A stretch of DNA of 64,000 bases from Branchiostoma floridae (Eukaryota > Chordata > Leptocardii > Amphioxiformes > Branchiostomatidae). The notes under the pieces were generated by a model. It searched no databases. It saw only the letters and a program-made list of their open reading frames with translations, and had not been told where the DNA came from. Shown one piece after another: positions 2,446 through 39,208 of this stretch (positions are counted from its first letter, which is position 1; each line of letters starts with the position of its first letter). The DNA lies in contig NC_049984.1 of assembly GCF_000003815.2 (NCBI RefSeq), positions 14,865,048-14,929,047 on the forward strand, read 5' to 3'. Both the position numbers and the translations under genes were made by a program.

Positions 2446-3139
2446 GGCTAAATTTCAATATTTCCTATGCATATTCTTAACAATGGGAATCATGGGAGAA
2501 AGAGGCTGTCAAAAATCACCTACCTGACTTTTAGAACATGAAAAACTCACATTGGCAAGGTTGTCCGACCTCTGAAGAGTAATTTAACGACAAAAAAGGG
2601 AAAAAATTTACGGCGGAATTATATCATACGCCATGAAAACATAGGTGGGAGACCTTTTCACCCCCTTTCACTGCATGTAAACAACACCAAAACACCTAAC
2701 TTCTAAGGCCTACTGCAACCACAAATATCACTAAAAATCTGTTTTTTCAACACAATATAGAAGCTACAACCCTTGCCTATAAGATGCACCCCCAAAATCC
2801 AAACATATCCCAAGAAAAACAATTTTACAGCCACTTTTCCCAAGCCTACCTAAGCATTCTGAGGGCACTAAAACTGGGTCATCTGCGCAAGTCCGGAAAT
2901 ACTGACATTTGCCCTGTGGGGGGTTCTGAAGAACCCCCCTGGCTACGGCCATGTTGTGAATAACGGTGTCTGTAAGCGGTGTCCATACTCGTAGTATTCT
3001 AACTTACCTTAGTATGGAAAGAGCTGACCGGGAAGCGAAGGGCCTCTGGGTTTCCTATGTCTGCGTGATGGCCAACTACAGGCGATTTCGGCCGCCGTGT
3101 CAGGAGAAGACTCGTTTGTTGACCTTGCCACCGGACAAG
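2446..3139. other. No gene recognised
   Basis: Unique-looking sequence between the palindromic array and the next inverted repeat. It has short ORFs on both strands without recognisable motifs or paired splice sites. Confidence 0.5.
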
Positions 3140-3410
3140 GGAAGACTAGTCTCTACCAGACTCCGGATCGCTGGAAAATCGTAGAAATGGAACAAATAGA
3201 GAGGAAATATAACCCNNNNNNNNNNNNNNNNNNNNNNNNNNNNNNNNNNNNNNNNNNNNNNNNNNNNNNNNNNNNNNNNNNNNNNNNNNNNNNNNNNNNN
3301 NNNNNNNNNNNNNNNGCTGTTCCTGGCCGGTTATATTCCTCTGGCCGGCTTACTCCTGATTTGTTCCATTTCTACGATTTTTCCAGCATCCGGAGTCTGG
3401 TAGAGACTAA
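3140..3410. repeat. Inverted repeat split by a 100-N gap
   Basis: The left arm (3140-3214) carries CTCTACCAGACTCCGGATCG and AAATCGTAGAAATGGAACAA. The right arm (3329-3410) carries the reverse complement TTGTTCCATTTCTACGATTT and CATCCGGAGTCTGGTAGAG. The Ns (3216-3315) sit at the centre. A diverged relative lies at about 54,990-55,100, so this is a dispersed family, probably the terminus of a DNA element. Confidence 0.8.
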
Positions 3411-3649
3411 GGGAAGGCGCTGTGTTTCCAAATTCTACCCAACATTTCCCTCGAACCTACGATCGAGGTTGTTGTTTCTCCACTTAGTGCACTCGTCGCC
3501 CATCAGGTAAGATTATTCATATCGTTATTACTTACACAATGACTTGTTTTTTAACAGTCGGGGCACCGTAGTTCGCCCCCCCCTCCCCCATTTTGTCGAT
3601 ACATTATCAAGTTATTTGTGGTCCTCTCTGGTTCGAAAACTAAACTTTG

Positions 3650-4597: not shown

Positions 4598-4904
4598 TTA
4601 AAAAACACACACACAAAAAAAAAAACTTATAATATCAATACAAATCAAAAAGATTACTGAACTAAAAAATTAGGTTTCCCATTTGTTCTTACTTTCATGT
4701 AGTTTTCATTCCCCTTGTTGTGATACTCCTACCCAACGAAAGAAATAGTCAAGTCTAGTATGTTCAAATGTTACAAACGTTTGTGAGTGACACTATATTG
4801 ATGACATCGTGTAAAGGGTGGCATGATGTCTTAATACTTTGGAAATATGTCTGCACTACCTTCTACTACCTGTGACATTGTGTTCAAACTTGCACTCATT
4901 TCAG

Positions 4905-5648
4905 ATACATCGATATGAGAGTATCTGGATACAAGGCAGTACACTTGAAGACACCAGCAGACATCAAACAGTATCTCGGTACACCAGATCAGAATGTTCG
5001 ATTTGGTAAGTAACCCAATTATACACAATATAAATATAGTATTCTTGTATGATTTCTTTGGTCCTCATCACAGCCACATGAACAAGAATTTGCCTTATCT
5101 TTTCTGGTCAACAAAATGCAACTCAGGATTTAAAATTAAAACAATACAACAATAACTGTTATTAATTCATACACAAAAGTGAATCAGAAACAATCGAATC
5201 AGAACTACATTCTACGGCGCCTTATCGAGAGCCATCCCCTCCCTATTGCACTCTTGGCTGTGGACGAGGCTCACTGTATACTTCAATGGTAAGCTATTAT
5301 CGATAAAATAAATTCTTGGTTTACTATAAGCATTTATAAGGCATCAATTTTCCTGGTGTGATCCTTGATAAAAAATTATTAAGACAACGCTACACTAGTA
5401 TACTATTACTAAAAGTCTACATGTTCTCCATAAGGGATGATGACTTCCGGAAGACTTTCAAAGAGCTTGGGAGTCTGCGTGCCCTCTTGCCTCAGAAGGT
5501 GCCAGTCATGGCCTTGACTGCCACTGCAACCCCTGCTGTGGTGAAGGCAGTGAAGGACACCCTCCACATGGATGACTTTGTGACAGTGAAGGGCTACTTG
5601 GACAGGCCAAACATCCATCTCCTGCGGAGGAAGATCAAGAGTATGAAG
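4905..5648 (+). pseudogene. RecQ-like helicase exons (copy 1, partial)
   Basis: Three exon-like blocks. 4905-5005 (after TTTCAG, before GTAAGT) reads GYKAVHLKTPADIKQYL, plausibly the motif Ia/Ib region. About 5203-5288 ends IALLAVDEAHCILQW, the RecQ motif II DExH box, with the final Trp codon split by GTAAGC. 5435-5648 continues DDDFRKTFKELGSLR and then VPVMALTATATP (motif III) and DRPNIHLLRRK, ending at GTAAGC. The second junction is exactly in phase (TG|G); the first is not, so an exon may be missing or broken. Walker A and motifs IV-VI were not found nearby, so the copy is incomplete. RecQ-family enzymes are 3'-5' DNA helicases; in this setting it is more likely a transposon-borne relative than a host BLM/WRN gene. 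Confidence 0.65.
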
Positions 5649-5889
5649 GTAAGCATTTTTCATCAATACAGGTTTTTGACTTGTTAATCAAATTCATGCC
5701 AAATCAGCAATCTATTTTTATATTTCAGCCATACATAATAAGGGGGAATATAATGGAATCCGAAAGGTTTCCTCCTCCTTTCTTCCCCCGGGCAATCTTC
5801 AAAGGGATTCATCTCCGCCGTTCCTGGACCGAATGACCTGAAATTCGGCACAGGGGTAGAGTGGGCCAATACCTTGATGCTTTTTTCTC

Positions 5890-6550
5890 ATTTTTTTCAT
5901 ATCTGCCTCTAAAGTGATTTTATTGAGATTTTTTGGTCAATTTTAGACCAAAACTGTATATTTTGGCCCCTGTACCCTGGTATTACAACCAAATGAGCTG
6001 AAATTTGACAGAGATGTGCCTTGATAATGCCCCCATATAAATTCGATAACACTTTTGGTGTACAGTACAACAAAATGCTTATTTTTGCGATTTTTTGACC
6101 AATTTTTGACCAAAAAAGGACACTTTTGGCCCCTGTACCCTGGTATTACAACCAAATGAGCTGAAATTTGACAGAGATGTGCCTTAATAATGCCCTCATA
6201 TAAATTCAATAACACTTTTGGTGTACAGTACAACAAAATGCTTATTTTTGCGATTTTTTTTACCAATTTTTGACCAAAAAGGACACTTTTGGCTCCTGTA
6301 CCTTGGTATTGCAACCGAATGAGCTGAAATTTGACACAGATGTGCCTTGATAATCCCGTCATATAAATTCAATAACACTTTTGGTGTACAGTGCAACAAA
6401 ATGCTTATTTTTGCGATTTTTGGCCAATTTTTGACCAAAAAAGGACACTTTTGGCTCCTGTACCCTGGTATTACAATTAAATGACCTGAAATTTGGTATA
6501 GATAGGCATTAGATACTTGGTAACAAGATTCAAGTAAAATTTTTGACATA
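5890..6550. repeat. 163-bp tandem repeat, ~4 copies
   Basis: TGTACCCTGGTATTAC or a close variant recurs at about 5971, 6134, 6297 and 6460, a spacing of 163 bp each time. The unit is T-rich and includes CTGAAATTTGACAGAGATG and TTTTGGTGTACAGT. 163 is not a multiple of 3, so the long minus-strand ORFs through it switch frame between copies and are not taken as genes. Confidence 0.9.
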
Positions 6551-7790
6551 AACAACTTTAAAATGATTAATTTTGGCACTTTTCTGAGGGGAAATTTGTT
6601 TTCTTTTGGCCTCCTGACGTGACCTTCCGTGACCCCGCACAGAGCCACACCTGTGCGCGTCAGCCGGAGAGTTAATTGAATCAAAGACCTAGCCAATCAG
6701 CGAAGAGGAGGCCAAAGGCTAATTAATATTCATAAGCGGGGCCTCATGATCCCGTATATAGCAGTGTTCCCGCCAGGGGGAGCGAAGCCCGCCTAAGGCT
6801 CTCGCATTTTAGACTATTCAGAAGGCTTTATATTGTATCAGTTCTTAGGGGCATATCTATGATAATCGCAGCAGTCACTTAACTTCTCTTCAGGAGTTTA
6901 GCGTAACACTATTTCAGTTCAAACCGTCAAAGGCAACTAAAAACAAACTTTAACGTTACTGAGTTCAACAGTACTTATAACTTGTTATCCGAAGTTGAAA
7001 CGCTAGCGATGGTATTTTCGCTGCGCTGTTAGCTCCGTGCGACTGTTGTTGACGGTCTTATAACGGTATATTTTGCACCCCTGTACCCTGGTATGAGTAA
7101 CATTTGGTATAGATAGGCATAAGATAGTTGGTAATATGATCCAAGTAAAATTTTTGGCATAAAGTACTGTAAAAGGCTTAATTACAGCACTTTTTTTTAG
7201 GGGAAATTGGTTTTCTTTCGTTCTCCATGCCATGACCTTTCGGACGTTCACCCCACAGAGCCGACATCTGCACCTGCGTCTAGCCGGCAGGAAGAGTTAA
7301 TTCAATTAATGGTTCAGCCAATCAGCGAAGAGGAAAGCGAAGGCTAATTAATATTCATAAGCGGGACCACACAATACGTTAACTTGAAGACTCAGGCCGT
7401 ACAGACTTCTCGCCAGGATTTTTTCAAAGCGTCGGACAGGGGTCCGGGGGCCGCCGAATGTCCCTGGCGGGGTCCAGGGGCAGGGCCACTGTGGGGGGGA
7501 CCCAGGTGGGCGAAGCCCCCCCCGGAAGCTCTTGCATTTTAGACTATTGAGAAGGCTTCTTTTATCAGTTTTTTAGGGCCATATCTACGATAATCGTAGC
7601 AGTCACTTACTTCTCTTCAGCAGTTTGACTTTAAAATATTTCGGGTCAAAGCTTCAAAGACAACTAAAACCTCATAAACAACAAACTTTACTTAGCTCAA
7701 CAGTATACAAAAATATTGTACGGGTTGAAGCGCTTATTTATAGCGCTAGTATCTTCGCTGCGCCGTTAGCCGCCGTGCGACTTTTGTTGA
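6460..7790. repeat. Diverged tandem duplication (~0.6-0.7 kb) with CCAAT-box block
   Basis: 6460-7060 and 7075-7790 are diverged copies. Shared landmarks are GGTATAGATAGGCAT, GCCAATCAGCGAAGAGGA (about 6693 and 7318), CTAATTAATATTCATAAGCG and GCATTTTAGACTATT (6804 and 7534). The second copy has about 105 extra bases, GC-rich, near 7400-7500. The CCAAT element followed by an AT-rich box resembles a compact promoter, but no downstream ORF starts in phase in either copy. Confidence 0.8.
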
Positions 7791-10700
7791 CGTTCTGATA
7801 TCCCTACGTCGCCGCCTCGCTGATATTCCCACGGACATGTTTCAAGAAAAATACCCAGCAAAAAACGCTGTTCTGCGTCAAATTCTATTCTATACAACAT
7901 GTGGGACTCAGTGTTACAGTCTAAATATTTTGTAGAAGCACCGCTGTAGGAAAGAAGGTCCAAGCAATGTAAAACATCACGTAGCATGAAGTTCGCTGTC
8001 AACTGGCACACAGCACATGACTGTTTGAAACTCTAAGTCTAATCAACAGCCGTGTTTGATTGATAGCCGGCGGTCCTTTGATGAAGTCGGCGAAAGGTGC
8101 GTTAGTTAGAAAATCTGCGTTTAGTTTTGATACGTAATTATAAGTTAGACAGTGGCGAGAATGATTATTTTCTCATCAATATTTCTCTTCAGAATTATTT
8201 GAACTTAATTGTACATCTAAACAATTGGCTTACCTGTGCAATGTTTATATGATTAATGATCAGTGTACTGAAATCATGTGTAACGTATGGCTCCTAGTCA
8301 ATAGATCAGCATTTTCTCTATAGTGACCACCTGTCTATAGTGGCCACATTTCTATCACTGGACTAGAACTTGCGAAAACTGCTGTATTTTCTCCAGAGCA
8401 AATGTATGTGTTCCTAGTGCTGTTGTTGTTTGACATAAACTTTGAACATTTAAATTGTAAGTAACTTTAAACTGTCAGAGTTTCAGCCCAATAAAACACT
8501 CTCAGCGCCAGGGTATGAACAGACTGACCAGACAGACGAAAATAAATCCTCGAACAAAGTTCAATCGTATCTTCCGGGTCTGGCAGGAAGTTGTTAAACT
8601 AAAATAAGAATAGGCTCGATGGCTGATTGCATACAAAGTAAAACAGTTTAACAGTTTTACAGCTTGAAGAAAACAAACGCTCCTACAGTACCTGCACCTG
8701 CTTGATAATTATTAAATCGTATGCCCTACTTGAATAAAAAAAAGTTCACTGCAATAATAAATGTACCCACATCACAAGGAGCTTATACTTTTTTAAACTT
8801 ACACCTAGTTATCGTACTGAAAATTGTTAATGACATTACATGAAGTCATTCAACAATTTTCAGTCATGATGAAACTTTTCTGAATGGAAGGTGTGATTAT
8901 TGTCATTTTCTGAAAAATAGAAGCAAGCTCTGTTTTTACCTGGAATCAATTCACAATACCAGTCCACTTTGGGGGATAATGTACTGTTAAGAGGATGTTC
9001 CATTTTTGCGCAGGGGTGATTTGGAACAGTCCAATGTTGCGTGGGAAGGGGTATGGCTGAAATATGCTGTATTTGCTCTTAAGAAAATGTCGGCCTTTCT
9101 AGTTATAAAATAGTTTTTTTGCGAGGATTTGGAGTTAACGACGAGGTCATTTGGACGGTAGCAGAAGGTACGCGTTCCTTGAACGTCAGAGTACATGTCT
9201 TTGTCGATGAATTTGCCAACATTCCGCGTAGCAATATCAATCATTTTCGGCAGATTTGACTTTGGCAGGGTAAGTTGAGACAATCGAGGAAATGTTACTT
9301 GGCGGAAATCGCGGGAAAATTGGCGAGTTTAGATTTGACAAGTAAGTTTAACAATGGCGAGAATGATTATTTCCTCATCAATATTTATCGTTAGAATGTT
9401 TTGAACTGTAAATCTAAACAATTGTGTTACCTGTGCAATGTTTATATGAATAAACATACATTTTGCCAGCACGATGTTGCAGCAACATGATAACTTTATG
9501 TCTGTATTATGCCACTTTTATTGTTGAAGGCGCGTAAGCAAATGAACAAGCATGACAAAAGAAATGTTATGATACTATTTATTCGGTAACATTCACTTTT
9601 ATTCACGATTCTAATTTGCAATGCCTGCAAACTCCGATCGGAATCACCCAGACCTTGTACGATTTAAAATGCATTTAACGTGAAATTGGAATTTATGACG
9701 AATCCGACACGTTAGTTCAAGGAGCTTTTATCAGATAAAAGCTCCTTGGTTAGTTCAGATTCTTTTCTCAGTAGTCACGCTTCCTATTTTCATAGTTTAA
9801 AAACTATCGACAAAGGAAGCGTTAAAGAATGTTTTTCTCCTGGTGCAAACTGTAAACACATGTCACCCACCACTCGTCTCCGATGTGACGAAGTCATTCG
9901 CGCCATTTTTATTGGATTTTAGACGGACTCGACAGTCGAGCCGTCCACCGCGGCCTTGGCATCGTTTCCTCGCGATCGGTGTCAGCCCTGACTGCACCGC
10001 TGCCCCTTGTCGTTGTCCCTCAACTTAGTTGTAGTAGAAGCAATAGTTTCCGCGTCGTCAACTTGTTGACAGGTCGACGCCTTAGCGAGATACTTGTGTA
10101 TGTTATCCAGTCCCAAACATCGCAGTTTCTCGGTTTATTTTCGCAAAGTTTCGTGCCTCTTCTTGATTGACGTTATGTTACCGCCTTTGTTGGAGCCGCT
10201 GCTGGCTGTGATTGGTCGCAAGTTAATTCGATTTTTCGCATAAAGTGGCACGCCCTGTCTAATCGGTATATCTAAAGACTGCAGCCAAGGCTGTTGTCAT
10301 GGTAACGACACGTATAACAACATTTCCCACATGCGAATCGGGTTGGGCACGTCTTGTAAAATTAGCGTAGCGGATCCGCTCCAAGTATAAACTTCGACCC
10401 CTATATGTTGCTTTTGGTAAGTTTTTGTCGACACATCTTGGCTTCCGGGTATCGCTCCGAGGACGCAAACAGTGAAGCACCCCGGGCAGCTTGACCGATA
10501 ATGTCATCGCTACGGGCTTTCGAAATTCATTAGGATATTGTGAGATTTTAGGTCCTACAATTTTCTTGCAAATCAGATATGTTAGACCAGATGGTACATT
10601 TTTACTTCCTGTATACTGTATAGGTGTAGTTCCCGGGGAAAATTTTGTTTGGAAATACGGCGTCGTTGAAAATAGTCTCTTAACTATACGTTTCAATGGG

Positions 10701-10850
10701 GGCGAGAAACTGGGGTGTGCCCCTAAATGTTCCATTTTCGAGCAGGGGTTATTTGAGACAGTTAAATGTTGTATGGGAAAAGCTATGGCTGAAATATGCT
10801 GTATTTGCTCCTAAGCAAATGTCGGCCTTTCTAGTATACAATATACAATC
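7791..10850. repeat. Repeat-rich stretch, no gene recognised
   Basis: Two repeat families are present. One pair is about 8150-8255 and 9345-9450, sharing GGCGAGAATGATTATTT and TTACCTGTGCAATGTTTATA. The other pair is about 8990-9110 and 10,725-10,845, sharing GGCTGAAATATGCTGTATTT and AATGTCGGCCTTTCTAGT. No ORF shows a domain I recognise. The ORFs at 10,259-10,735 (minus) and 10,491-10,814 (plus) overlap each other and the repeat, and look fortuitous. Confidence 0.7.
9719..9749. repeat. Perfect hairpin (15-bp arms, 1-nt centre)
   Basis: CAAGGAGCTTTTATC is followed by A and then GATAAAAGCTCCTTG, an exact inverted repeat with essentially no loop. This is more perfect than its surroundings. It is not adjacent to a called gene, so no terminator function is claimed. 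Confidence 0.9.
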
Positions 10851-10859
10851 ATAGATGTA

Positions 10860-11185
10860 TATGTCACAGTAGAGATCACGATCCAGTAGAATCGTCGATT
10901 CTCCTAGGAGTGATCGCGATCGGAGCTGGTCCTAGGGCCAACTCTGATCTGGATCTCTCCTAGGAGAATAGGCGATTCTACTAGTACAGATTGCGATCGG
11001 GGTCTCTCCTAGGGCCAACTCCAATCTAAACTCAAATGATGCTAAGATATGGGAAACAGACTGCGATCGGGATCTGTCCTAGGACAATCGGCAATTCTAC
11101 TAGTACAGATTGCGATCGGGATCTCTCCTCGGACCAACTCGGATCCAAACTCAAATGATGCTAAGATATAGGAAACAGCAATATT
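10860..11185. repeat. 119-bp satellite, ~2.7 copies
   Basis: CTAGTACAGATTGCGATCGG recurs at 10,981 and 11,100, and TCAAATGATGCTAAGATAT at 11,032 and 11,151, a period of 119 bp. The unit is full of small palindromes (CTCCTAGGAG, CGATCG, ACTAGT). A more diverged partial copy lies at 10,860-10,980. Confidence 0.85.
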
Positions 11186-11391
11186 TTTTTTTTTTGGATA
11201 AACAATTATTTTATTTAGTATCAATGCAAACCTCCTAACTCATTACCAACTACACACATTGAAGTCTACTTGGAAAATGTACGCAATAGGTGTGAAATTG
11301 TGAGTAATATCAAAAAACGGACCTTTATCGAGAGTACAAATCAGCACCTACCCAGCAAAACTGGACGAACTATACAAGGTGTAAAAACACA

Positions 11392-11802
11392 CTCACCTTG
11401 GAACTCCGTCGTGCAGAACGTGAGTATAACAACTCCATCGGCGACAACATCAAAAGTCCTGACGACTGCAAACTCCTGTGGTCGGTACTGAAAAACGCTA
11501 CCGGAAAGGGAAGGATGGGTATCCCTTCACGTCTCTACCAGGGTCGTACTCTCGACAAGGACTGCGAGAAGGCTGAACTACTGAACAACATATTCGTTCA
11601 GACAACTATGGACAGCAAACACCCGGACTACATGAAGAGACTACCACTGTACACAGACAACGAGCTCAGCTCCATACAGCTGTCGACCGAGGAGGTCTAC
11701 GACGTGCTACTGGGACTACCAACAAACAAGGCTCCCGGACGGAATAACAAACCGCCTACTCAGAGAAGCAAAACTTACACCACAATGTCTCAGCCTCAAT
11801 AG
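11392..11802 (+). mobile_element. LINE fragment: linker before reverse transcriptase
   Basis: The frame reads ELRRAEREYNNSI, LLWSVLKNATGKGRMGIPSR, EKAELLNNIFVQTT and LLGLPTNKAPGRNNKPP. This is the stretch between endonuclease and reverse transcriptase in CR1/Jockey-group non-LTR elements, with the EKAxLLNxxF and NKAxGxDxxP signatures; the Asp of the last is replaced. The frame ends just where the reverse transcriptase should begin. Truncated and inactive. Confidence 0.75.
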
Positions 11803-11967
11803 CCGTCCGACTCTAAAATAGCATGTCCAGTCTCATGATAGCTCTGGGCTGTGAACTGAGTAAAGTCTCATAACAGTTTTTTATGTATCCTCTTGTGTTG
11901 CTTAAATATTACATTTGTCATTATTTCAGTTAACCAATAATATTCTTTCCATTTCCCCTCTCAAGTC

Positions 11968-14032
11968 ATGAGCTTGCACAGCCTGAGGTGGGAACAGTTA
12001 CCAGCAATTGTTGCCGGCTTGGATGACAACACAGTCATCCTCACAAGCACGGAAGATGGTGTGTTTCCATTTTTCCCACAAAATTGTATTCCTGCTTAAA
12101 CATACACAAAGAGAAGTGTATCAAATAAGTAATGCTGTGCAGTTAATGGTAATGGCCTGCCCCAAGGTGTGTTTGGTGTCATAACGCCATGTACTAGTCT
12201 TTGACAAAACAAGCAAATGAAACCACCAAGTGAACAGGCGGGTGTAAACATTGTTGTTATACAGCCTTTCAGAACTAACCCATATGAAATGTACACATTG
12301 TGTATGATGCAAAGATTCCTAAATGATATACTTGAAAATATATTTGTCAATTTCTGAGGAATGAATTTATTGGTAAAAATTTTGTTTAATATGCACACTT
12401 TTCAAAATTTAAAATAAAGAAAATTAAAGCACATGTTGTTTCAATTCTAATAGAACTCTTTGAGAGACAAAAATTTAATGAAAAAGCATATTTTGAAATA
12501 AATGTACTAGGAAAAATCACAAAGGGAAAGAGAAGGAACACCCACAAAATAGAATTTGTCCAGTTCAAAATGTGTTAAGGAAGTTTGTGAACTTATATGG
12601 TGTGATTTGATTAGATATTCCCCTGTTGCATAATTATGTGGTTTATTGTCCACTACAGACGGTGTGCTTACACTGTGCACATCTGCCACTTCACCCATGG
12701 AACAGGCCAGCACGAGTGGCATGGAACAGGCCAGCACGAGTGGCATGGAACAGGACAGCACGAGTGGCATGGAACAGGACAGCACGAGTAGCATGGAACA
12801 GGCCAGCACGAGTGACATGGAACAGGACAGCACGACTGGCATGGAACAGGACAGCACGAGTGGCATGGAACAGGTCAGCACGAGTGGCATGGAACAGAAT
12901 AGCACGAGTGGCATGGAACAGAATAGCACGAGTGGCATGGAACAGAATAGCACGAGTGGCATGGAACAGAATAGCACGAGTGGCATGGAACAGGCCAGCA
13001 TGAGTGGCATGGAACAGGACAGCACGAGTGGCATGGAACAGGCCAGCACGAGTGGCATGGAACAGGACAGCACAGGTGGCAGCTTAACTCAACCTACGGA
13101 ACAGACCAGCATGAATGGCAGCTTAACTGAACCCACGGATCAGGCCAGCACGAGAGGCAGCTTAAATAAACCCACAGAACAGGCCAGCACGAGGGGCAGC
13201 TCAGCTCAACCCATGGAACAGGCCAGCACGAGGGGCAGCTTAACTCAACCCATGGAACAGGCCAGCACGAGGGGCAGCTCAGCTCAACCCATGGAACTAG
13301 CCCTAGCAACTACCAGACAGCACCCTGCAGAAGCCCTCAGGATGCATAGACAGTTTCGTGAGTGTATTTTTTATAAACAAATGAAATGTGTTAATTGCTT
13401 ATTGTTCATTGACTCTTTTAGTTGTTGACAGGAAGAAATAATTACACTGAACTATCAGACACATAACATACAAAACATATAACATGTCATTAAAAGAATA
13501 ATTAAACGAACACATGTGCCTTTTATTAAGTCCCTCGTGTGCCATTAGCCGAGTTTTGCATGTGTTTCACTAGCTGCTTGGATGTACTCCCAGTTTGCAA
13601 CTCATGCGCTAGTTGGTTCCATTCAGATGGTGGTTGATATGTGAGGGATTTCTTAAGGCTATTTGTTTTTAGTTTCTCCGTTCTAAAGTGTTTCCATGTT
13701 GCATGTCTTGTACGTTCCTTGGGATAAAGTACTTTGTGAAAAGTACACATGTTGCTAAATACATAGAGTCTTTTACTTGTGTGCTAGTCTCAATCAAATA
13801 CCCATCCTGATATTAAGCCAAACTTTTCCAATGACAGTTAAATTCTTCTTAGTGAAGGAAAACACACTCGTAACATTATTTGATGTGTGCTGGCTTTGTA
13901 GGTCCGATCGGGAGGATGCAAGGCCGATACCTGACCAGCCCATACCACCGGGTCTTTTTCCTTCCCAACTCTGGCTGGTATGGCCCATACCTGATGACAT
14001 ACAGACCGAGGGGGAATTTCCACCAGCATTAA
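11968..14032 (+). CDS. Three-exon gene with Ser/Thr-rich coding minisatellite
   Basis: The exons are 11,968-12,058, 12,659-13,357 and 13,902-14,032. All junctions are GT-AG and in phase (split codons G|AC and C|GT), and the last exon ends at TAA. The first ATG is at 11,968, but a possible acceptor (CTCTCAAG) lies 2 bases upstream, so more 5' exons may exist. Exon 1 reads RWEQLPAIVAGLDDNTVIL. Exon 2 holds 16 copies of an 8-residue repeat (GMEQ-A/D/N-STS, 24 bp) and then about 5.5 copies of a related 13-residue repeat of the form SLTQPMEQASTRG (39 bp). Exon 3 is aromatic-rich (RYLTSPYHRVFFLPNSGWYG). No known domain was recognised. It may be an independent gene or the 5' part of the same element as the downstream DUF6589-like gene. 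Confidence 0.55.
12659..13300 (+). repeat. Coding minisatellite, 24-bp units then 39-bp units
   Basis: The 24-bp unit (GGCATGGAACAGGCCAGCAC plus GAGT) repeats 16 times from about 12,697. It then gives way to a 39-bp unit that keeps the GAACAGGCCAGCACGAG core and adds GGCAGCTTAACTCAACCCA. Both lengths are multiples of 3 and no stop occurs in the plus frame. Confidence 0.9.
13530..13760 (-). mobile_element. Probable LINE C-terminal tail fragment
   Basis: The minus-strand frame reads LKKSLTYQPPSEWNQLAHEL and STSKQLVKHMQ. This resembles the carboxyl tail of many non-LTR reverse-transcriptase proteins, where a pattern close to WNxLPxxLR...SLxxFKxxLK occurs. It lies inside the intron between 13,357 and 13,902. 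The fragment is short, so the call is tentative. Confidence 0.4.
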
Positions 14033-14599
14033 GATTGCCACGAGCTACTTTCTATACCCTTTGTTAAGAATGAAAGAATAGAAAGATCACGCCACGTCAC
14101 CAAACGAGTTCCCTATTGACGCTTAGGCAGACAAGGAAACAACTAGGAATCATAGCATGTGTAAGATGCTATCATAGGGAACTCATGCGGTGACGTGGCG
14201 TAATCTTGAATACTGTTGTCTTCAAATATTAACTTGCTACATATAAGGAACAAGAGTTAGACTAAGTACGAAATATGTGTTACATGAACAAGTAAACAAA
14301 TAATATGGTAACAACAACTTGAAATAGAGTTCTTTTGTAACCTTGCATTAGGTTGGAAGATTTCAACCTGTCATCACATGAGGTTGGTAAATACCTGAAG
14401 GCAGAATTCCCCATCGTCAGAGTGAAAAGAGGAAGGACTGCCGGAACGGCATACTCGGGTGTATCCCTCTTTCAGCCGATCCCAAGATCAACTTTGCTGC
14501 CTATTCAGCTCGGCTTAACTGGGCCACACCAATTCAACCCTTTCCACAGCTACAGTCATGCTTCAGCGGTAGGTTTTTCGTCTGCAACGCTGCATGCGC

Positions 14600-15165
14600 A
14601 CCAAGGCTTCAGCTATGTCCACAGTCCACACCGTCCAGTCACTCAATCAACACTGTCGTCATCGACAAACAAGCCTGCGGTAGGTTTCTCAACGCTGCAA
14701 GGTGGATTCAACTCAGTCCACACCGTCCAGTCGCTCAATCAACACTGTCGTCATCGACAAACAAGCCTGCGGTAGGTTTCTCAACGCTGCAAGATGGATT
14801 CAGCTCAGTCCACACCGTCCAGCCTGCGGTAGGTTTCTCAACGGTGCAAGATGGATTCAACTCAGTCCACACCGTCCAGTCGCTCAATCAACACTGTCGT
14901 CATCGACAAACCAGCCTGCGGTAGGTTTCTCAACGGTGCAAGATGGATTCAACTCAGTCCACACCGTCCAGTCGCTCAATCAACACTGTCGTCATCGACA
15001 AACAAGCCTGCGGTAGGTTTCTCAACGCTGCAAGATGGATTCAGCTCAGTCCACACCGTCCAGCCTGCGGTAGGTTTCTCAACGGTGCAAGATGGATTCA
15101 ACTCAGTCCACACCATCCAGTCGCCCAATCAACACTGTCGTCATCGACAAACCAGCCATTTGGCG
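14600..15165 (+). repeat. Higher-order 92/149-bp tandem repeat in a coding exon
   Basis: TCGCTCAATCAACACTGTCG or a near variant occurs at 14,639, 14,731, 14,880, 14,972 and 15,121, spaced 92, 149, 92 and 149 bp. The long unit equals the short one plus 57 bp. None of 92, 149 or 241 is a multiple of 3, so successive copies are read in different frames and the frame entering the array stops at 14,775. Each unit carries GCGGTAGGTTTCTCAACG, a donor-like GTAGGT. Confidence 0.85.
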
Positions 15166-18164
15166 ATGATGTTGTGAAGTTATGGAAGAAAATAGAATGT
15201 AAGAACACAACTACAGAAGCACGCCAAGCAGCAGCCATCTTGGATGGGGCCACAATGGGGAACAAACTGCAGATGGAGATAACTGCCGCTTTGCTCCAAC
15301 AACAGCCCACTATCAACCACAATCAGAACAATATCCGACATTCTGCAATTCAGCGTCCAGGACACCACTGCTTACATGATGACAAATGCGCCAACAATAT
15401 ACAGCCTAATCAGCAACTTGATAACACCAACATACAAAAGAAGCACAGAGGACCGGTCGCAGTCTTTAGCCATAGTAATAATATCAACCATAGCCAACCA
15501 CCACAGCCACAAGACAACAGGAATCCAGACCATCCTGTCACTGGGATCCATGGCAAGAACTTGTAATAACCAGGTATGTGTTTATTAGCCAATTAATTGC
15601 ATGTCGGATAAATGCACACTCCGGTCAATTGCATAAAGTCCCCAAATTCCCAACAAACTCCCATTCACTCCATTGTTAGTGGCTTTGCTTATCTGCACAA
15701 CGAAAAACCACCAATGCCGGATAATGGCACATAATTTTGTCAAACATTGTGGACAAACAGACTCAATAAAATTTGTTCTCTACCCCCCATTGTTTACTTA
15801 TTGTAATTGAGATTGCGGGGAAAGACTTTTGCGTGAATGAGAGAAATTAAAAAGTTTTAAGTTCTTGGCATCCAGTTGGAAACCACACAGTGACTCTGGT
15901 CCTATAGACGGTAGTAGCAGTCTCTTTGAGCAGTGCGTCACTTTTGTGATATCAACTGTCAGTCAGTGCCTGCCCTCTGGATACAGCACAGTGTACTACC
16001 ATAGTGTTGGCAGTCAAACCTTTCCCAGCATTAGACAGGACACTACTCTGGACTGATCCATAATCATGGACGTGTCACAGTGCACAGTCAGCTGAAACGT
16101 ATACGGTCCAACTTTTTAACTCCGCATTATTGCACACGCCGGACAATTGCACGAAAAACGCTGGCAAATTGGTTGTGCAATTAAGCGGCTTCTACTGTAT
16201 TTGAAGGATTTTGTGTCTCTTTGTTGGTGATCAGTTTTTGTTGGGTGTGCTGAGTCCATACTTTCTATGTCTTTACTATTTTTAAACAACCATTTTTGAT
16301 ATATTCATTCTTTTCAGGTACAGACGGTCCTGAACCATGCGGACATGGCAGTGTCGAAGATTATCAAAGATTACGCTGCCCAGATGCGGTCCACCCCCAT
16401 CCCAAGTGAAGGGCAGATATGGGCATATGATAACCTTAATATCATGGTGCGGGTGCAACAAATCAGAAAAGGTATGGTATGAACATTTGAGACTTTTAGC
16501 ATATGTATATTTTGCATTGATCTTGAATCTTGAGTTTTTACCACTCTATCTGTATTTTCTATGTCGTATAACACAGAGATTATAAATGGTCTGGATGTAG
16601 CATACCATTGCTCTGCTTTAACTGAGTTATTTTACCATCCTTTGTATAGGACACCACGGGGAGATGAAGATTTGGACCACACGTTTGTCGGTGCCATTGA
16701 GGTACAACCCTCCTGCTGAGCTGTCCTCAGAACCTGCGGTAAGATTTTATATCCAAGTTCCCTTCTTCGCCTACCAAAAGGGCTTGATTGTAAAGTTTGG
16801 TGTACATGTTCTTCCACACGAAATTGTTTATAGTATCTTTTTCTACTATTAATGCATGATATTCTGTTACATTCTACAGGGAAGACGCAGGGATCTCTGT
16901 GCAGCAGACCTGCTGCCTTCCAGAGAGGACATGGACAGCCTAAAAGGCAGATTGGCAATACATGTGAAGAAGCTGTTGTGCACACACTTCACCAGGTTCA
17001 AGGATCTCAGCCGACCCCAACCTAGCAGGGCAGTTACAAAGTCTACATACCGCCCCCTGGAACTGATGGACAAGGATGAGGCTAAGACCTCGGACAATAT
17101 CAAGATTTTGAGAGAATTCGCTACAGAGGCGGGGATGACACCAGACCACTGCCCTGATCAGGTTTGATTCCAGCTATGAACTTATTTATGTGAAAGTGTG
17201 TGTTTTTGTAAGTTGATGTAATAAGATTCTTCATAATCTTTCATCATTGCTGCTCTAACTTTCTATTGAAGTCTTGCAAAACAAATATCTTTACTAGTAT
17301 CAATATCTATAATCGATGTATTAATGAGCATCATTTGTTTAGGACATTATGTGATAATACAGTAATGCAGGACCCCTTTTAGCAGACTTGACAGATGTCA
17401 TGTGATTGTTGCCTCTCTGTTGTCTGTAGGAAATTGTTGGAGACCAAGCGACTTGCAAAAACATACGAGGAGCAAAACGTTTCCGGCAGCATGATGAAGA
17501 TGATCTGGAAAGGTTGCAGTGGGCAAAGGAGTGTCCAGGTGAGTTCATTTGGAAGTTTTCTGGTGATGTCAGAGGGTGGCTGGGAAGCGTGTAGTCAACT
17601 TGTTTTATGACGACATGTACATGTGCCAGTTTGTGTCAGTCTGTATAATATTATGTTTTCACTAGTTGTGATTTGTATTTCATCCTTAACCCATGTTTAT
17701 GTAGGTTCCACTTTCAGTGGGAGACTGGAAAGTGTCTCTCCATGACGAACTGGTCTTCCTCGCGTAATGTAGAGACACTAAGCCACCTCAGGGATTTAGT
17801 CGACAGAAGAAATGTACGTCGACAGATTAGGTACGTACCTATTCATATTGTGTAACCCATTCAATGCCTGTCATACAGATGTAAATTCTGACCATATGCA
17901 TAAAATATAGATTTCAATGATTTTGATCTGATTACATAATATTCATTTTAATTATGTCCATGTTTTGCTGTCATCACTACAGGGAAAAACTACAATGCAC
18001 TTGATGAGTTTCTTCATCATGCGTGCAGGGCACACCTGACAGCAGCCCTGTTACAGCATCTCGGTATGGAGTCTCCATCAAACGAGCTGCCAGGAACAAG
18101 TGAAGAGGAGCTGGATGGCATTATAGAGTCCTTCTTGCTGTGCAGGTATTTGTTGTTTGCCTTG

Positions 18165-18538
18165 AACGTGCCAGCTGAATTTACTATATATAATAATGCC
18201 CAGATAACAATAGTTTGTCACGATTTCTACTACATTACTATACAGGAAATGGCAGTCTTTAGGCAGACGACCTCCCTTACTAAAGACAATTACTTTTGTC
18301 TTCTTAAGATTTACATTCAAATGCCACGATTTACAATAGGTTTCTAATCTACATAAAGATGTTTGTAGACCTTGCTCGGTTTCAGAGAGAAGCACAAGAT
18401 CGTCTGGATATAATAAGCAGGACACTATCTTATTATACAATGTTGGAGGACTACAATCATAATCATTAAACTCGTCTATTAAATCACTTATGAATAAATT
18501 AAACAAAGTAGGACTAAGATTTATTGATCTCTTGCCTT
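18165..18538 (-). mobile_element. Antisense LINE reverse-transcriptase fragment
   Basis: The minus-strand frame gives LSPTLFNLFISDL, then CLLYPDDLVLLSETEQGLQT, WHLNVNLKKTKVIVFSK and NYCYLGIIIYS. These are the reverse-transcriptase palm and following block of a non-LTR element. The catalytic YADD box is YPDD here. Both ends are truncated. It sits in the DUF6589-like gene, behind the exon ending at 18,145 and antisense to it, so it is a later insertion. Inactive. Confidence 0.75.
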
Positions 18539-19260
18539 TTTAGGAACGTTTTGTGTTACCTTGTCCGCGTGCAAGAGGTCATGGGAGGTTCATTACAATA
18601 GATTTATTCACCGTCGATCGCACGAGCCTCGCTTATATGTGACGGGGGCAGTTTTTGGGCGAAAAATACGCAAGACCATCTGAAGGTCTTAAAATCAGCC
18701 GGCCTTCCTGTGATCGCGAAGTACGTGCGAAGATCGTATATAATGTGAGGGGAGCACAAAATGACGAAGCTTTGGTCTCACGCCAAATGAGAGCAAAGCA
18801 GTCGCCAGACATTATTACAGCAACTGTGGGGAATTCCCTTGCTCGCTGCGCTCACTCACAGTTTAGGTCGCAGTGTGACGTCTTGACAGTCTTTTACTAA
18901 CGATGCTTTTTTTTAATATTGGCAGTTTCTCATGTCCCAATATGAGCTAGCAGCAAACGCCAAACGTCCGAACAATGAGCTGGCCAAATTGAAAAGCTAC
19001 ATCGGTCTGCGGAACAAGGGAGATGAAAGGCCAAGAGGACTCACCAATAGTACAAAAGAAAGGGCAAGAGCAACCGACACAAACGCACCTGGCACAAGCT
19101 CACCTGACTCTGAAGGTGAGCATCATTTAAGTCTCACAAAAGTTCACTTTCATGAAATAGAACTCATCTATGTTCAAAATTGAATCAATGATAAGAGGAA
19201 TTTTCGAAAGAATACTGAGAAAAGAGACTGTTTAGTCACAGGTGCAGAGGTTGCTATATT

Positions 19261-19541
19261 TACCTTCGCCAAGAAGTTTATATTTTGGGTAGCGTTTGTA
19301 TGTATGTATGTAGAAGACCAGCACATCTCGATAACACTTGGATGGATGGATTGATATTCGGTATGTGGGTAGGTCTTGATGGGACCTGAAAACATTAATT
19401 ATGCAAATGAGGAATTCATCAATGAATATAATTTATGCAAATGAGGTCCTTATTTGCATAATTATTGGAAAACAGAATTTATACAGCAGTTGTAAAGGGT
19501 AGATTCATTTGGTGAAGGTATGGGGTCGTGGAACTCTTGTT
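19261..19541. mobile_element. Short MITE with TACCTTCGCCA TIR
   Basis: It starts TACCTTCGCCA and ends TGGTGAAGGTA, followed by GGTCGTGGAACTCTTG, a flank also seen after the element ending at 50,718. The interior has ATTATGCAAATGAGGAATTC and TCCTTATTTGCATAATTATT modules. It lies in the intron before the last exon of the DUF6589-like gene. It is a short relative of the two larger elements at 47.9-50.7 kb. Confidence 0.75.
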
Positions 19542-19932
19542 TAATGTATAATTGCTATCCGTCAGTTACAATTTGCTTTACCGCCAGATATTACAGGGGA
19601 CGGTGCAATTCCGGCTAGGACTGAGAAGAAAACGGTGCAGGAAGAAAGTGGCAACAAGCAGAAGTCTTTGGAACTCGTAGGAACACTTGACTCAGAGAGC
19701 TCAACATTGGATTTGACTGATATGGTGCTGTTCAACAGAAAAGTTACAGTTTAACAAAAAACTTTGTGTGTTTGGACCCTTATTGTGTTTTTTGGTAAAT
19801 CTGCAGGGGCCGATCGTGTGTACGTGTGTCGCAGCGATGCCACAGTTAAAGGTCTTGGAAGTCAAATTGTGCTTTGTACATGATTAAGCTATTCAATTTT
19901 TTCCTCATAAAATGACTTGCCTTTATTTCCAG

Positions 19933-20883
19933 GAAGCAGGAAAGAAGTTGAAAGCGTTAGTTCCGAAGATGCAACTACCTGCCATGAAGCCAAGTATGTT
20001 GAGTTCAAAACATTCAATTTTCAAAGCAATTTCATAATAAAAAAATTCCTCACTTGTATAATGCACCACCTATCGACAAATGAAAACTGTAGCTACTTTT
20101 GGATTGAGCGCACCTATGTACCTAGATATTTGTCAACACAATATACAGTATATTCCTCAATTCTCTTTATTGAACAAGATGCACGCACTACATCTAAGGA
20201 TGACTTATTGTTTTCTTTCTTATTAAAGTCCTGTATTTTTGTTTGTTTCCTTAATATAGGGTTTCGACAACAACAAAACGTGCAAGTTGCATTGCAGCTT
20301 CTTGCTGTCGTTCCATACGTGGCAAACATCGTCAGCGAGTCATTTGAAAAGTCAAATGGAACAGAGGACGCTGCACTTTTCAGCGATGGCGACAAAACTA
20401 TTCTGAAAGCCATTAACAGTGTATGTGAATCATCAGAACAATTTGTGTTGACTAGTATCGAGCACTTTTCACTTTATGACAATTCCTTTAACATGGATGT
20501 ATTTGTTGATCGCAATATGAGAAGCAGGCTACTTTAGGATCATCCTTAAAATCTTGCATGGAAATCTTGAGAAAAAAGCCTTGACCTTGTCATCACACGT
20601 CATAATGATAGTCAGGCAAATGTATGTTCACCAAAAGTTTATGAACCGACAGGAAAGAAATATATAGGAGGTACCATAGGTGATAGACGTTTTCAATGGC
20701 CGATATAATGACATATTTTGAATTTCAGAACGACGTTGATGACGCTGATTCGGTAAGATTTGCTTGGTCCGAATTTCAAAGACAGATGGCAGTGATGGCA
20801 TTTTATGAACGCCTAGTGGACGACCCATCCTACTCTTCGAGTGCACAAAAATCGTATGACCATTACGTCCGATGGTATCAATG
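19933..20883 (+). CDS. Unidentified exon-like ORFs
   Basis: Three blocks look coding. 19,933-19,992 (after TTTCCAG) reads SRKEVESVSSEDATTCHEA. About 20,260-20,537 reads VQVALQLLAVVPYVANIVSE and TILKAINSVCESSEQFVL, then a stop. About 20,723-20,883 (after TTTCAG, before TAA) reads VRFAWSEFQRQMAVMAFYER and HYVRWYQW. I do not recognise a family. Phase between the first two blocks does not fit, so whether they belong to one gene is uncertain. They could be remnants of the same element as the flanking genes. Confidence 0.35.
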
Positions 20884-21446
20884 GTAAGCTTGTAAGTTTC
20901 ATATTTGTTATATGTGATGAGTGTTCGCATCTGTATCATATCTATTTCCCTTTGCCGCATTTGTATGGAGTTTGGCAAGTCGTCTGCACGCAGATGCGTT
21001 AACATTCCCCTTTTTCACAGTAGATATTTTTATATTTGATGTAATGTTTTTTGAGATCACCACTACGTCCTTCTGTATTATCTACTTATCAAGATTTGCC
21101 AAAATACATACCATGTGTTGACACAATCTCTCGCTGGCTGGGGTTAATGATCCCTCCAGGGCGGCGGAAATTGTTTCTTGTTACTGTTAGGAGACACTAT
21201 TTCACGGCGACCACACCCGTATTGTGGCCCAGGTCTGCCTTATCTCCGTGTGTTGGGCCTTGTGGTAATTTGATATTGCCAAGTAGATGTTGCGTGATAT
21301 TCTCTGATCTAAAAACCACCCCACCCCAAAAACATTGACAGAAGTGTAGCCTTAATGTTCGTTGCTACACAGGATAAGTAAATGCTGTATAGCCAAAAAA
21401 TTCAAATCGCATCACAGCTTAATCTCACTGTCCTTTGTGATTGCAG

Positions 21447-21620
21447 ACTTTCCCCGGGGCCAGGGTATTGGCGATTTAACAAATCCCTTCTCAAGGACAA
21501 AGTTTTCTGCTTTCGTTTCGAAAACAATGTCGGCACTGCAAACCCACAGATAGTTTGGGATGCATCTTTCGAGGACATTGCATCTAATTCTCCAGTTATA
21601 AAAAATACTGCCAAACAAAA
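21447..21620 (+). mobile_element. LINE fragment (endonuclease-RT linker)
   Basis: The frame reads GPGYWRFNKSLLKDKVF and NPQIVWDASFEDIA. The GPGxWxxNxSLLxD motif lies just after the endonuclease domain of many L1-like and RTE-like non-LTR retrotransposons, followed by a W-D block. It abuts a copy of the repeat at 21,605. Short and inactive. Confidence 0.6.
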
Positions 21621-21735
21621 TTGAAATTAATACTGTTCATTTTGGGATTTGCAGCTGACAGCACTGGAAGTCAAGACTCCTGTACAAAAGTGTCTAGTGG
21701 CAAAATATATAAGATACTTCAAAGACTTGTCTCTG
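21605..21735 (+). repeat. Dispersed repeat family, copy 1 of 3
   Basis: AATTAATACTGTT, GATTTGCAGCTGACAG and CTGGAAGTCAAG are shared, with mismatches, with about 26,490-26,710 and 32,540-32,760. All three have an acceptor-like TTTGCA(A/G) before CTGAC(A/T)G. Here the block leads into the helicase frame (LTALEVK...). Confidence 0.7.
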
Positions 21736-21971
21736 ATGCAAGATCAACTGAAACGTCAAAAGAGAAGAGGGCTTTCAGCGGTATAGATAGGCGAGACGCA
21801 CAAAGACCCAGAGATCAAGCGAGGCGTTGTGAATGGTAAATACAGCCTGGTCTTCGCGTCTCCAGAAGACTTGCTGAACTAGAAACCATGGCGGGGTATG
21901 CTAACCAGCTCCACTTACCGGGAGAAGCTTGTCGGCGTGGCGGTAGATGAGGCGCATTGTGTAACAACTTG
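21650..21971 (+). pseudogene. RecQ-like helicase copy 2, motifs Ia-II (stops)
   Basis: One frame reads SLMQDQLKRQKRRGLSAV, stop (TAG 21,784), IGETHKDPEIKRGVV, GKYSLVFASPEDLLN, stop (TAG 21,880), then EKLVGVAVDEAHCVTTW, and a GTAAGT donor at 21,972. LMQDQ (Ia), FASPE (Ib) and VDEAHC (II) are standard RecQ helicase landmarks in the right order. The Trp codon is split TG|G, as in copy 1. Two in-frame stops show decay. Confidence 0.75.
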
Positions 21972-22045
21972 GTAAGTCACAATGGAAAGTAAATCACAAT
22001 GTATGATTCCGTGGTATGATATCGATGGAAAATGCATGAATCTAA

Positions 22046-22404
22046 GGCCACACCAATTTAATTTCTTGGTTCACGGATTCGCTCGCTCCTATTTTTTGGA
22101 AAAAAAAAATAATAAAAATTACCACTCAGCAAATTTTCACCATTAATGAAGCCATTCACCAACTTTCTGGTGTAGCAAATTGGCCTTTATATTATAAGCT
22201 CCTTAAAGTGTGGGTACAGGTGCTGTTACTGTACAATAATAGTGTTTTTGTACTTTTTTCAAGCTGAAAACTTGTTTTCTTTATGTTTTGGATTAGTCGT
22301 TACCTTTACCCCAACCATTTTACAATTTTTATTTTTATTTCGCCCTCTCGCTCCATATTTTTTATAAAAAAATCCGTGAACCAAGAAATTAAATTGGTGT
22401 GGCC
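22046..22404. mobile_element. Harbinger-type MITE (359 bp, TAA target duplication)
   Basis: The TIR of about 34 bp, starting GGCCACACCAATTTAATTTC, is repeated inverted at the right end (GAAATTAAATTGGTGTGGCC). It is flanked by TAA on both sides (22,043-22,045 and 22,405-22,407). A 3-bp TWA duplication is typical of PIF/Harbinger elements. The element sits in the intron between helicase motifs II and III. No ORF. Confidence 0.85.
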
Positions 22405-22904
22405 TAACGGGAAGATTCAGGTTCATGTGGAAGATCGGTGTATTTGCGTATTAAAATACGTAGGTATAACTTTGTTACAGGAGTTAAAAATGGGAGGGGG
22501 GTATATCGCGAGATTTTGTGTAAACACAGGCTAGCTTCCGCGTTGTAACTTTTGTCTTGTTAACCTCGATGTACCGCGCGCGGTAAGATACGTGTTGTAA
22601 GGCGTGCTTTTGTAAATTATGGACAAGAAGACGTGCACACGAAGTTAAGATAAATTAGATGCTCTTTCCTTTTTTTGTTGAAAAAAAGACAAACTTATGC
22701 AGTTTCTAGTTGTAATGATGTTATGAAACTATTAGCATATATATAACGTTTTATGTTAGATTCTTTGTCTAAGTCAATAAAGGTTAACCTAATTACACAA
22801 TAGGATATTCGCCCTTTTTCTATATCTGGCACCCTGATTGGATGAAAAATCAGTTAATTTTTGAACTTGAGTATCTTAATCACAATGTCTATTTTGGTTG
22901 ACAG

Positions 22905-23620
22905 GGGAGAAGAGTTCAGAAAGGACTACAAGCGGCTGGCTGAGCTAAGGATATTGGTTGCTGATGTTTCTGTCCTCGCGCTAACAGCCACGGCCTCAGA
23001 CGATATTAAACAGGCCAAACATTATGTACCATGCAGTAAGCTGCAACCTACAACATGAAAAAGGAGTTCCACTGGCTGCTGTCTGAACTGAAAGGACAAT
23101 AATGCCGGAAGGTCATTATATACTGTAGAAACATCAAGTCATGCTCCCAAATGTATGAAGTTATTATGGACTTGTTGGAAGATGATGGATACAATCTTGA
23201 ACATGACCAGGCAAAGTCATATAAGAATACGTACGTATTATGTTCGTACAGCTGACACGAAGAAGAATTTTGTGCTGGAACAGTTCACAAAGACAGTTCG
23301 TATAACAATTGCCACAGCGGCATTTGGAATAAATGTGCCTGATGCATTTGCAGTTGTACATTGGGGGGCACTACGAAATGTTGAGGGGTTTTACCAGGTG
23401 ACTGGAAGAGCGGGCAGGGATGGTCGACCTGCTCATTCTACATCAGAGCAGAACTCTAGCAAAAGGTTCATGCTCACCCAGCATGGCTGCCTACTACAAG
23501 CTGGATAAGGAGTCTTGTAGGAAATATTTGATAGACTCTATCGCACTGAAGAGTTGTACCATTACAGAGGCGCTGTCAGTAGAACACACCTGTTATGACT
23601 CTTGTGGGTATAGTTCCACT
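22905..23620 (+). pseudogene. RecQ-like helicase copy 2, motifs III-VI and Zn site (frameshifted)
   Basis: After TTGACAG at 22,904 the frame completes the split Trp and reads GEEFRKDYKRLAELR, then VLALTATASDDIKQ (motif III). From about 23,055 it reads MKKEFHWLLSELKG, a TAA stop, then KVIIYCRNIKSCSQMYEVI (motif IV). A different frame carries NFVLEQFTKTVRITIATAAF, HWGALRNVEGFYQ and TGRAGRDGRP (motifs V-VI). A third frame carries SRTLAKGSCSPSMAAYYKL, ESCRKYLID and EHTCYDSCG, matching the RecQ zinc-binding cysteines. So there are at least two frameshifts and one stop: a clear pseudogene of a full RecQ helicase core. Confidence 0.8.
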
Positions 23621-23639
23621 CTACCTTGGCATGAAACAA

Positions 23640-23884
23640 ATTTAAACCTGTCATCTACTTCAGAAATCTCAGACGAAGAGCTTTTAAAACTAACAGGAGG
23701 ATGGAGGATACATGGCACACAAGTCTGCCCACACTCAGTAGGAACATAAATGCAAGAAAACTCCACTATACCGACACAGTTAAAGCCCATGTCACTCCAA
23801 AGTATGACACCTGCGGAAAGCTCTTTCACCACCCATCCTGTAAGCTGTTGAGAAGTCACCTCAGCCTTGTTATAGACAAATGTT
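23640..23884 (+). pseudogene. Tail of decayed helicase or adjacent gene
   Basis: Short frames continue after the zinc site: TSEISDEELLKLTG, then in another frame HVTPKYDTCGKLFHHPSC, ending at TGA near 23,884. There is no recognisable domain beyond paired Cys/His residues. Probably the C-terminal part of the same pseudogene. Confidence 0.3.
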
Positions 23885-24118
23885 GACTTTCCATGGATAA
23901 CTTAAGAGTAAAATGTTAACTTGAAAGTTATGTGTGTTACGAGAAGTGGATTGTTCATTCCTTGACAAAGACTGGAGCTGTTCGGTGAAAATTTGGGAGA
24001 GGCCAATTTTTGTGTTGCATATTACAGTTAAACTAGTTCATTAGGAGTAAAATGTGTTTCAAGTGTTAATGTCAGCTTTAATAACAATGTCTGAACCTGT
24101 TTAAATGCTACTTTACAG

Positions 24119-24310
24119 GAAACAACTCCAATGTACTGGATGAGTTCCTCCACCATGTTCACAGTACCAGTTTGACAGCAGCATTGCTGACACACATGAA
24201 GATGGAATCCAAAGCAGATGACTACTGGGGTGAGGAATGCATCGACGACATATATGGCCAAGTCTTTCCTACGGGCATTTGTGTGCAAGAAGAAACAGGA
24301 GAGCACAGCT
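24119..24310 (+). pseudogene. Second DUF6589-like exon fragment
   Basis: After CTTTACAG the frame reads NVLDEFLHHVHSTSLTAALL, THMKMESKADDYWGEECID and DIYGQVFPTG. This aligns with the exon at 17,983-18,145 (ALDEFLHHACRAHLTAALLQ). It shows a second, diverged copy of the DUF6589-like gene directly behind the decayed helicase. No other exons of this copy were found; it is cut short by a stop at about 24,310. Confidence 0.65.
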
Positions 24311-26489: not shown

Positions 26490-26712
26490 CATGAAATTAA
26501 TACTGTTGATGTTTGGTTTTGCAACTGACAGCCCTGGAAGTCAAGGAGAATGCAAAACTCCCGTATAAGAGTAGGAAAGCGGAGTCTGGTGACAAAACAT
26601 TTAAGATAATTGATCAAGACTTGGGTATTCTGTGAAACAGGATAGTAAGGGCAGTTAGAGAAACCCTGGCAGATGTCGCCATCGCAATACCCTACTTCAG
26701 AACAAGGCACCC
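26490..26712 (+). repeat. Dispersed repeat family, copy 2 of 3
   Basis: The frame LTALEVKENAKLPYKSRKAE is followed by CAAGACTTGGGTATTCTGTG, AGGGCAGTTAGAGAAACCCT and ATACCCTACTTCAGAACAAG. The last blocks recur at 32,690-32,745 and 34,030-34,070. Stops interrupt it. Part of the decayed multi-copy exon family described at 32.5-34.7 kb. Confidence 0.6.
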
Positions 26713-39165: not shown

Positions 39166-39208
39166 CGTTACCAATTACTATAGCAAATTCTTCGAGTTTG
39201 CGAAACTC

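Follow-up and report, generated by a model that had tools for sequence, protein, structure and literature searches.

Do the RecQ-like helicase and DUF6589-like gene fragments that lie close together on Branchiostoma floridae contig C6 come from one large transposon present twice, or from several? The 64,000-nt stretch that we analyzed (C6:14865048-14929047; here called the window) contains two RecQ fragments (RecQ1 and RecQ2) and two DUF6589 fragments (no. 1 and no. 2), all on the plus strand. A first-pass annotation had grouped these into two pairs and suggested that both are copies of one Academ-type element. Searches of the genome (513,431,437 bases in 431 contigs) lead us to another reading, to which we assign a probability of roughly 0.8: the window appears to hold the decayed remains of large DNA transposons with a RecQ helicase and DUF6589, from two or more families, and their kind is most likely AcademH. 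All of the window pieces are broken.

The association of the two genes extends well beyond the window. DUF6589 gave 55 matches in the genome (82 candidates scored) and none in 14 control genomes; RecQ gave at least 33 (best 32 of 254 candidates scored), a list that leaves out the window's own RecQs. Clustering at 10 kb yielded 47 DUF6589 loci and at least 26 RecQ loci. Among the matches listed, a DUF6589 locus lies within 15 kb at 13 of 26 RecQ loci, where random placement predicts 0.07, so the neighborhood seen by the first-pass annotation recurs elsewhere. By hand count, three of the 13 paired loci (C17, C11 at 6.30 Mb, and C193) have RecQ followed by DUF6589 on the same strand (type I); the other 10 show the convergent, or type II, layout. 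Of the 20-kb stretches surrounding the 10 best DUF6589 loci, eight contained RecQ; none was found within the stretch at C8, and at C193 RecQ lies outside it, 12 kb away. At least 30 of the 47 DUF6589 loci had no RecQ seen nearby among the matches listed, which may reflect the limited set of matches, decay, or a real lack. Contig C6, which spans at least 27.7 Mb of the 513 Mb, is crowded with DUF6589: it has 13 of the 47 clustered loci and, by hand count, 16 of the 36 matches that DUF6589 no. 1 gave beyond the window.

Complete relatives start with TAGCCTG, end with CTA, enclose both genes, and are flanked by target duplications of 8 to 9 bp. We found four such elements with inverted termini and common ends. 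The C17 element (C17:8972475-8984524; 12,050 bp) is flanked on both sides by CATACGGGA (9 bp), and its termini match at 11 of the first 20 bases. The C16 element (C16:2513525-2523353; 9,829 bp) has flanks ACAAAGTTC (9 bp) and termini matching at 20 of 20; the C10 element (C10:22670920-22682939; 12,020 bp) has flanks TGATGATTA (9 bp) and termini matching at 14 of 20. Each of these three contains RecQ and DUF6589. The C9 element (local 8336-13903) starts with TAGCCTGG, and has flanks ATTAACCT (8 bp) and termini matching at 15 of 20; its interior holds pieces of both genes as well as an N gap. C9 and C10a share the right end CCCAGGCTA.

We scanned 10 loci for TAG...CTA pairs spaced 4 to 16 kb apart, with identical 9-bp flanks and 8-base termini having no more than two mismatches. 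This yielded three pairs (C17, C16, and C10), compared with two pairs in all across 20 simulated sets; apart from these and C9, none of the ten loci had cleanly paired ends. A fourth 9-bp pair, with poor termini, is taken as chance. Dropping the TAG/CTA requirement raised the number of 9-bp pairs to 42, versus 18 to 37 in simulated sets. When the 300 bases at the left end of the C17 element were compared with the genome, 11 of 40 matches (best 40 of 142 candidates) started exactly at base 1; the others corresponded to inner parts. The C17 and C11 copies are near-identical (98 to 99% over long stretches), which suggests recent movement of a transposon with its own RecQ helicase. On the 3' side of the C17 element, near the type I 3' end, the minus strand (L017:3751-4512) carries a second, diverged RecQ N-terminal half. 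It was detected by tblastn (E 2e-5 at C17 local 13751-13963), resembles the first RecQ in inverted orientation, and had no Pfam helicase match.

As for the DUF6589 protein, in C17 it is encoded by one open frame of 711 aa (PF20231, E 4.7e-38, profile positions 10-407 of 410) and in C11 by one of 906 aa, which opens with a longer repeat array. Aligned DUF6589 pieces show GD in four of five rows (the fifth row begins at D), a conserved H preceded by an acidic residue at a distance of two places in four of five rows and of three in the other, and D-x-x-x-E on the C-terminal side in eight of eight rows, of which C8, C9, and C10a are near-identical copies. These conserved acidic positions would suit a DDD/E transposase. 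Pfam files PF20231 under unknown function; the DUF6589 name, alone or with "transposon," had no mention in the literature searched. No PHROGs family matched, and no relatives were found in viral and prokaryote collections, only two stretches without real similarity. We propose that the DUF6589 protein would act as a DDD/E-type transposase that cuts the element at both ends and opens the target with a 9-bp stagger, while the RecQ helicase would unwind the ends or the joined product and so render a long element movable.

Academ transposons have terminal inverted repeats, and AcademH is reportedly their helicase-encoding lineage, with animals and fungi said to be given as hosts in the title of a 2020 paper by Kojima. 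For AcademH, PMC10045372 describes a helicase gene and target duplications of 9 or 10 bp. Likewise, the complete elements here carry a helicase of superfamily II (RecQ) beside a transposase-like protein, have terminal inverted repeats, and reside in an animal host; their target duplications are 9 bp in three of four cases and 8 bp in the fourth. PMC10799480 names AcademH, KolobokH, and Helitron as sources of transposon helicases; passages of PMC10294476 and PMC9004415 add nothing on helicases. By these likenesses our elements most likely belong to AcademH, an already described kind, with DUF6589 as its putative Academ transposase. The first-pass annotation's Academ-type reading fits as regards helicase, ends, and three of four duplications, but not in its view of the window pairs as copies of one element.

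Several observations weigh against this interpretation. Among the four complete elements, C9 departs from AcademH in having a duplication of 8 bp. Pairs at duplication lengths 6, 7, 8, 9, 10, and 11 numbered 7, 1, 3, 3, 0, and 1, and length 9 is not distinguished by count alone. DUF6589 has no matching PDB sequence, and neither RecQ1 nor DUF6589 no. 1 could be tied to any complete element. The two remaining 8-bp pairs are one pair in two copies, lying within a type I element and having poor termini. What sets the four elements apart is their common TAGCCTG start together with the presence of both genes inside.

It is possible, but in our judgment unlikely, that instead of being AcademH the elements form a lineage of their own or are KolobokH-like. 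The 8-bp duplication would fit such an origin. Kolobok duplicates TTAA, whereas the duplications here are 8 to 9 bp. KolobokH also carries a RecQ helicase, but in PMC9587614 it is stated from fungi only and its RecQ lies downstream of a DDD/E transposase, while in the present elements RecQ lies upstream (type I) or occupies the opposite strand. The KolobokH order was not found among the matches listed: 3 of 13 paired loci run from RecQ to DUF6589 and 10 of 13 are convergent. This one genome has same-strand, convergent, multi-exon, and intronless-helicase forms of RecQ-bearing transposons. We regard it as a rather speculative idea, slightly less probable than the one just discussed, that DUF6589 might be the transposase of diverse RecQ-bearing transposons, maybe a lineage distinct from AcademH, where the helicase may have changed its position or its strand more than once.

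Returning to the remains in the window, we searched it on both strands (E up to 1) with a profile of five RecQ proteins from plasmids, which matched at 3049-5639 and 21727-23439 only. A profile of DUF6589 no. 1 matched its own exons and 24112-24246, nowhere else in the window; these two profiles found no further RecQ or DUF6589 copy there. The joined pieces of the two RecQ fragments matched TIGR00614 with E values of 2.5e-38 and 1.9e-39, both scores being under that model's full-length cutoff.

The first piece of RecQ2 (21727..21971, plus strand; motif Ia to DEAH) has in-frame stops at 21784 and 21880 and ends within a Trp codon; the second piece (22905..23696, plus strand; motifs III to VI) has indels that break the frame when it is compared with its relative on C17. 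The first-pass annotation's RecQ at 21.7-23.6 kb is real, as judged by TIGR00614 and by Pfam DEAD and Helicase_C matches, but its Zn site was recognized by eye only and had no Pfam match. The Trp intron holds an inverted-repeat element (22045..22405) with 35-bp perfect arms that is missing from the C17 and C11 relatives. DNA identity of the first piece to the type I elements C17 and C11 is 84 to 85%; compared with type I RecQ as a whole, RecQ2 is 81 to 85% identical in coding parts and 67 to 75% in intron parts. By these identities, RecQ2 is a fossil of the same-strand RecQ-DUF6589 (type I) family. One repeat occurs at 21624-21731, 26491-26717, and 32534-32747 (69 to 82% identical), on either side of RecQ2 and DUF6589 no. 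2; its reading frame had no Pfam match.

DUF6589 no. 2, directly beyond RecQ2, is a single exon beginning at 24119 on the plus strand. The DUF6589-like exon reported at 24.1 kb is borne out by a stretch of 53 residues that shares 51% amino acid identity with the corresponding exon of no. 1; Pfam did not reach no. 2 alone. With its flanks (23893-24510), this exon is 80% identical in DNA to C1:31154236-31154834, while window positions 23400-23696, in RecQ2, match C193, C17, and C11 at 81%. Among 51 matches listed (best 40 of 1310 candidates), no locus besides the window covers both segments. RecQ2 and the adjoining exon therefore derive from two families, with the junction at 23.70-23.89 kb. The type I DUF6589 gene sits about 5 kb beyond its RecQ and at E 1e-3 matched neither window DUF6589 by tblastn; the profile of DUF6589 no. 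1 does reach it (3.5e-07).

The other pair, RecQ1 and DUF6589 no. 1, has a less certain history. The first-pass annotation placed RecQ1 at 4.9-5.7 kb; the DEAH and TATATP motifs are real, but the true start is at 3.05 kb, and the first exon was missed. That exon (3052..3506, plus strand), recognized by profile and translation, carries motifs 0 and I at the 3052 side and motif Ia by 3506; it is broken by an insert (3147-3409) and an N gap. It is followed on the same strand by a second exon (4906..5008), identified by translation and by its own match in the genome protein comparison; the DEAH exon (5215..5288), which ends within a Trp codon (TG, followed by gtaagc); and the exon with TATATP (motif III; 5435..5648), the last RecQ1 piece found. 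The joined pieces match Pfam DEAD with an E value of 2.4e-13. With the five-sequence RecQ profile, motifs IV to VI were not found in the window outside RecQ2, and RecQ1 is without a C-terminal half there. RecQ1 has also decayed, in that the exon after the first does not keep the reading frame.

The RecQ1 insert is a short inverted-repeat element with TAGTCTCTACC termini (20 of 20 matching) and flanks AGGGAAGAC and AGGGAAGGC (9 bp, one mismatch); once it is removed, the joined flanks give an open frame through motif I. Its termini (TAGTCTC) are similar to the ends of RecQ-DUF6589 elements (TAGYCTG), and it may be a non-autonomous relative of them.

DUF6589 no. 1 (16318..18147, plus strand; PF20231, E 3.2e-33, profile positions 3-219) has six exons: 16318-16471, 16650-16738, 16880-17161, 17430-17542, 17705-17830, and 17983-18147. 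The gene proposed at 14.4-19.8 kb is therefore real, but its exons begin at 16.3 kb, and the frames at 14.4-15.6 kb that had been counted to it belong instead to a tandem repeat. There is one frame inconsistency about exons four to six, and the second half of the domain is not detectable. A reverse-transcriptase fragment (18081-18539, minus strand) lies just downstream. The closest relatives of DUF6589 no. 1 are at C7 19.62 Mb (44 to 66% by exon), C6 26.7 Mb (58 to 60%), and C9 15.26 Mb (45 to 61%).

RecQ1 relatives that also break at the Trp are found on C298, C9, C2, and C17 (4.13 Mb), with 44 to 50% identity to RecQ1; each is convergent with a gene like DUF6589 no. 1 at a distance of 2 to 4 kb, and the C2 and C17 (4.13 Mb) loci resemble copies of each other. 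The top matches outside the window, C7:12557095 (51%) and C17:15001882 (52%), are not near DUF6589. In the window, RecQ1 and DUF6589 no. 1 are 10.7 kb apart on the same strand, while their relatives are convergent. Since RecQ1 is only 44 to 50% like paired loci and 51 to 52% like unpaired ones, its origin in one element with DUF6589 no. 1 cannot be claimed. The two unpaired matches would also suit a decayed copy of a RecQ gene of the host, positioned before DUF6589 no. 1 by chance. We consider this improbable because those two matches continue unbroken over the Trp codon, whereas the RecQ1 Trp is split as in many element RecQs, and because four loci do pair a RecQ1-like gene with one like DUF6589 no. 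1. RecQ1 and DUF6589 no. 1 belong to older lineages whose relatives occur in the convergent layout.

The Trp intron itself, which the first-pass annotation correctly saw in both RecQ copies (TG and G on its two sides), is found in seven of nine element loci examined; literal DEAH was not found in C16 and C11b. RecQ1-query matches that cross the Trp unbroken (query residue 71) occur at loci without a DUF6589 neighbor, and an unbroken Trp is also found in RecQ adjoining DUF6589 at C1, C7 14.75 Mb, C12, C10 1.79 Mb, and C6 19.83 Mb. Being present in several element families and missing from others, the intron is no proof of a shared element. RecQ1 and RecQ2 are 27.7% identical (38 of 137 positions), a value lowered by the decay of both, and are no closer mutually than to bacterial RecQ. 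A search for long-range inverted ends around the window pairs found none that were convincing and none in common. We rejected the highly improbable proposal that the two pairs are copies of one element: although gene order and strand agree, the Trp intron and the intron preceding the LDEFLHH exon (which has one position and one phase in the two DUF6589 copies) are common to both pairs, and the DUF6589 exons are 51% identical, RecQ2 and its neighbor match different DNA families among the matches listed, the two RecQs are far apart in sequence, the pairs have no common ends, and the Trp intron is shared by several families.

Other repeats also occupy the window. In 1-2445, 100% identical repeats flank an N gap (1504-1603), perhaps a tandem array collapsed in assembly. 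A 652-aa open frame on the minus strand at 37212-39167 has a reverse transcriptase domain (RVT_1, E 1e-29). The repeat at 6840-9103 is 94% identical to DNA directly after the C10a element end; because the C10a right end abuts a copy of this repeat, the C10a element probably inserted into it.

These results show that adjoining fragments may stem from different families, which makes gene order alone a poor guide to element structure. They also link DUF6589 to helicase-bearing transposons that are complete and whose ends are defined, and the family could accordingly be tested as a transposase.

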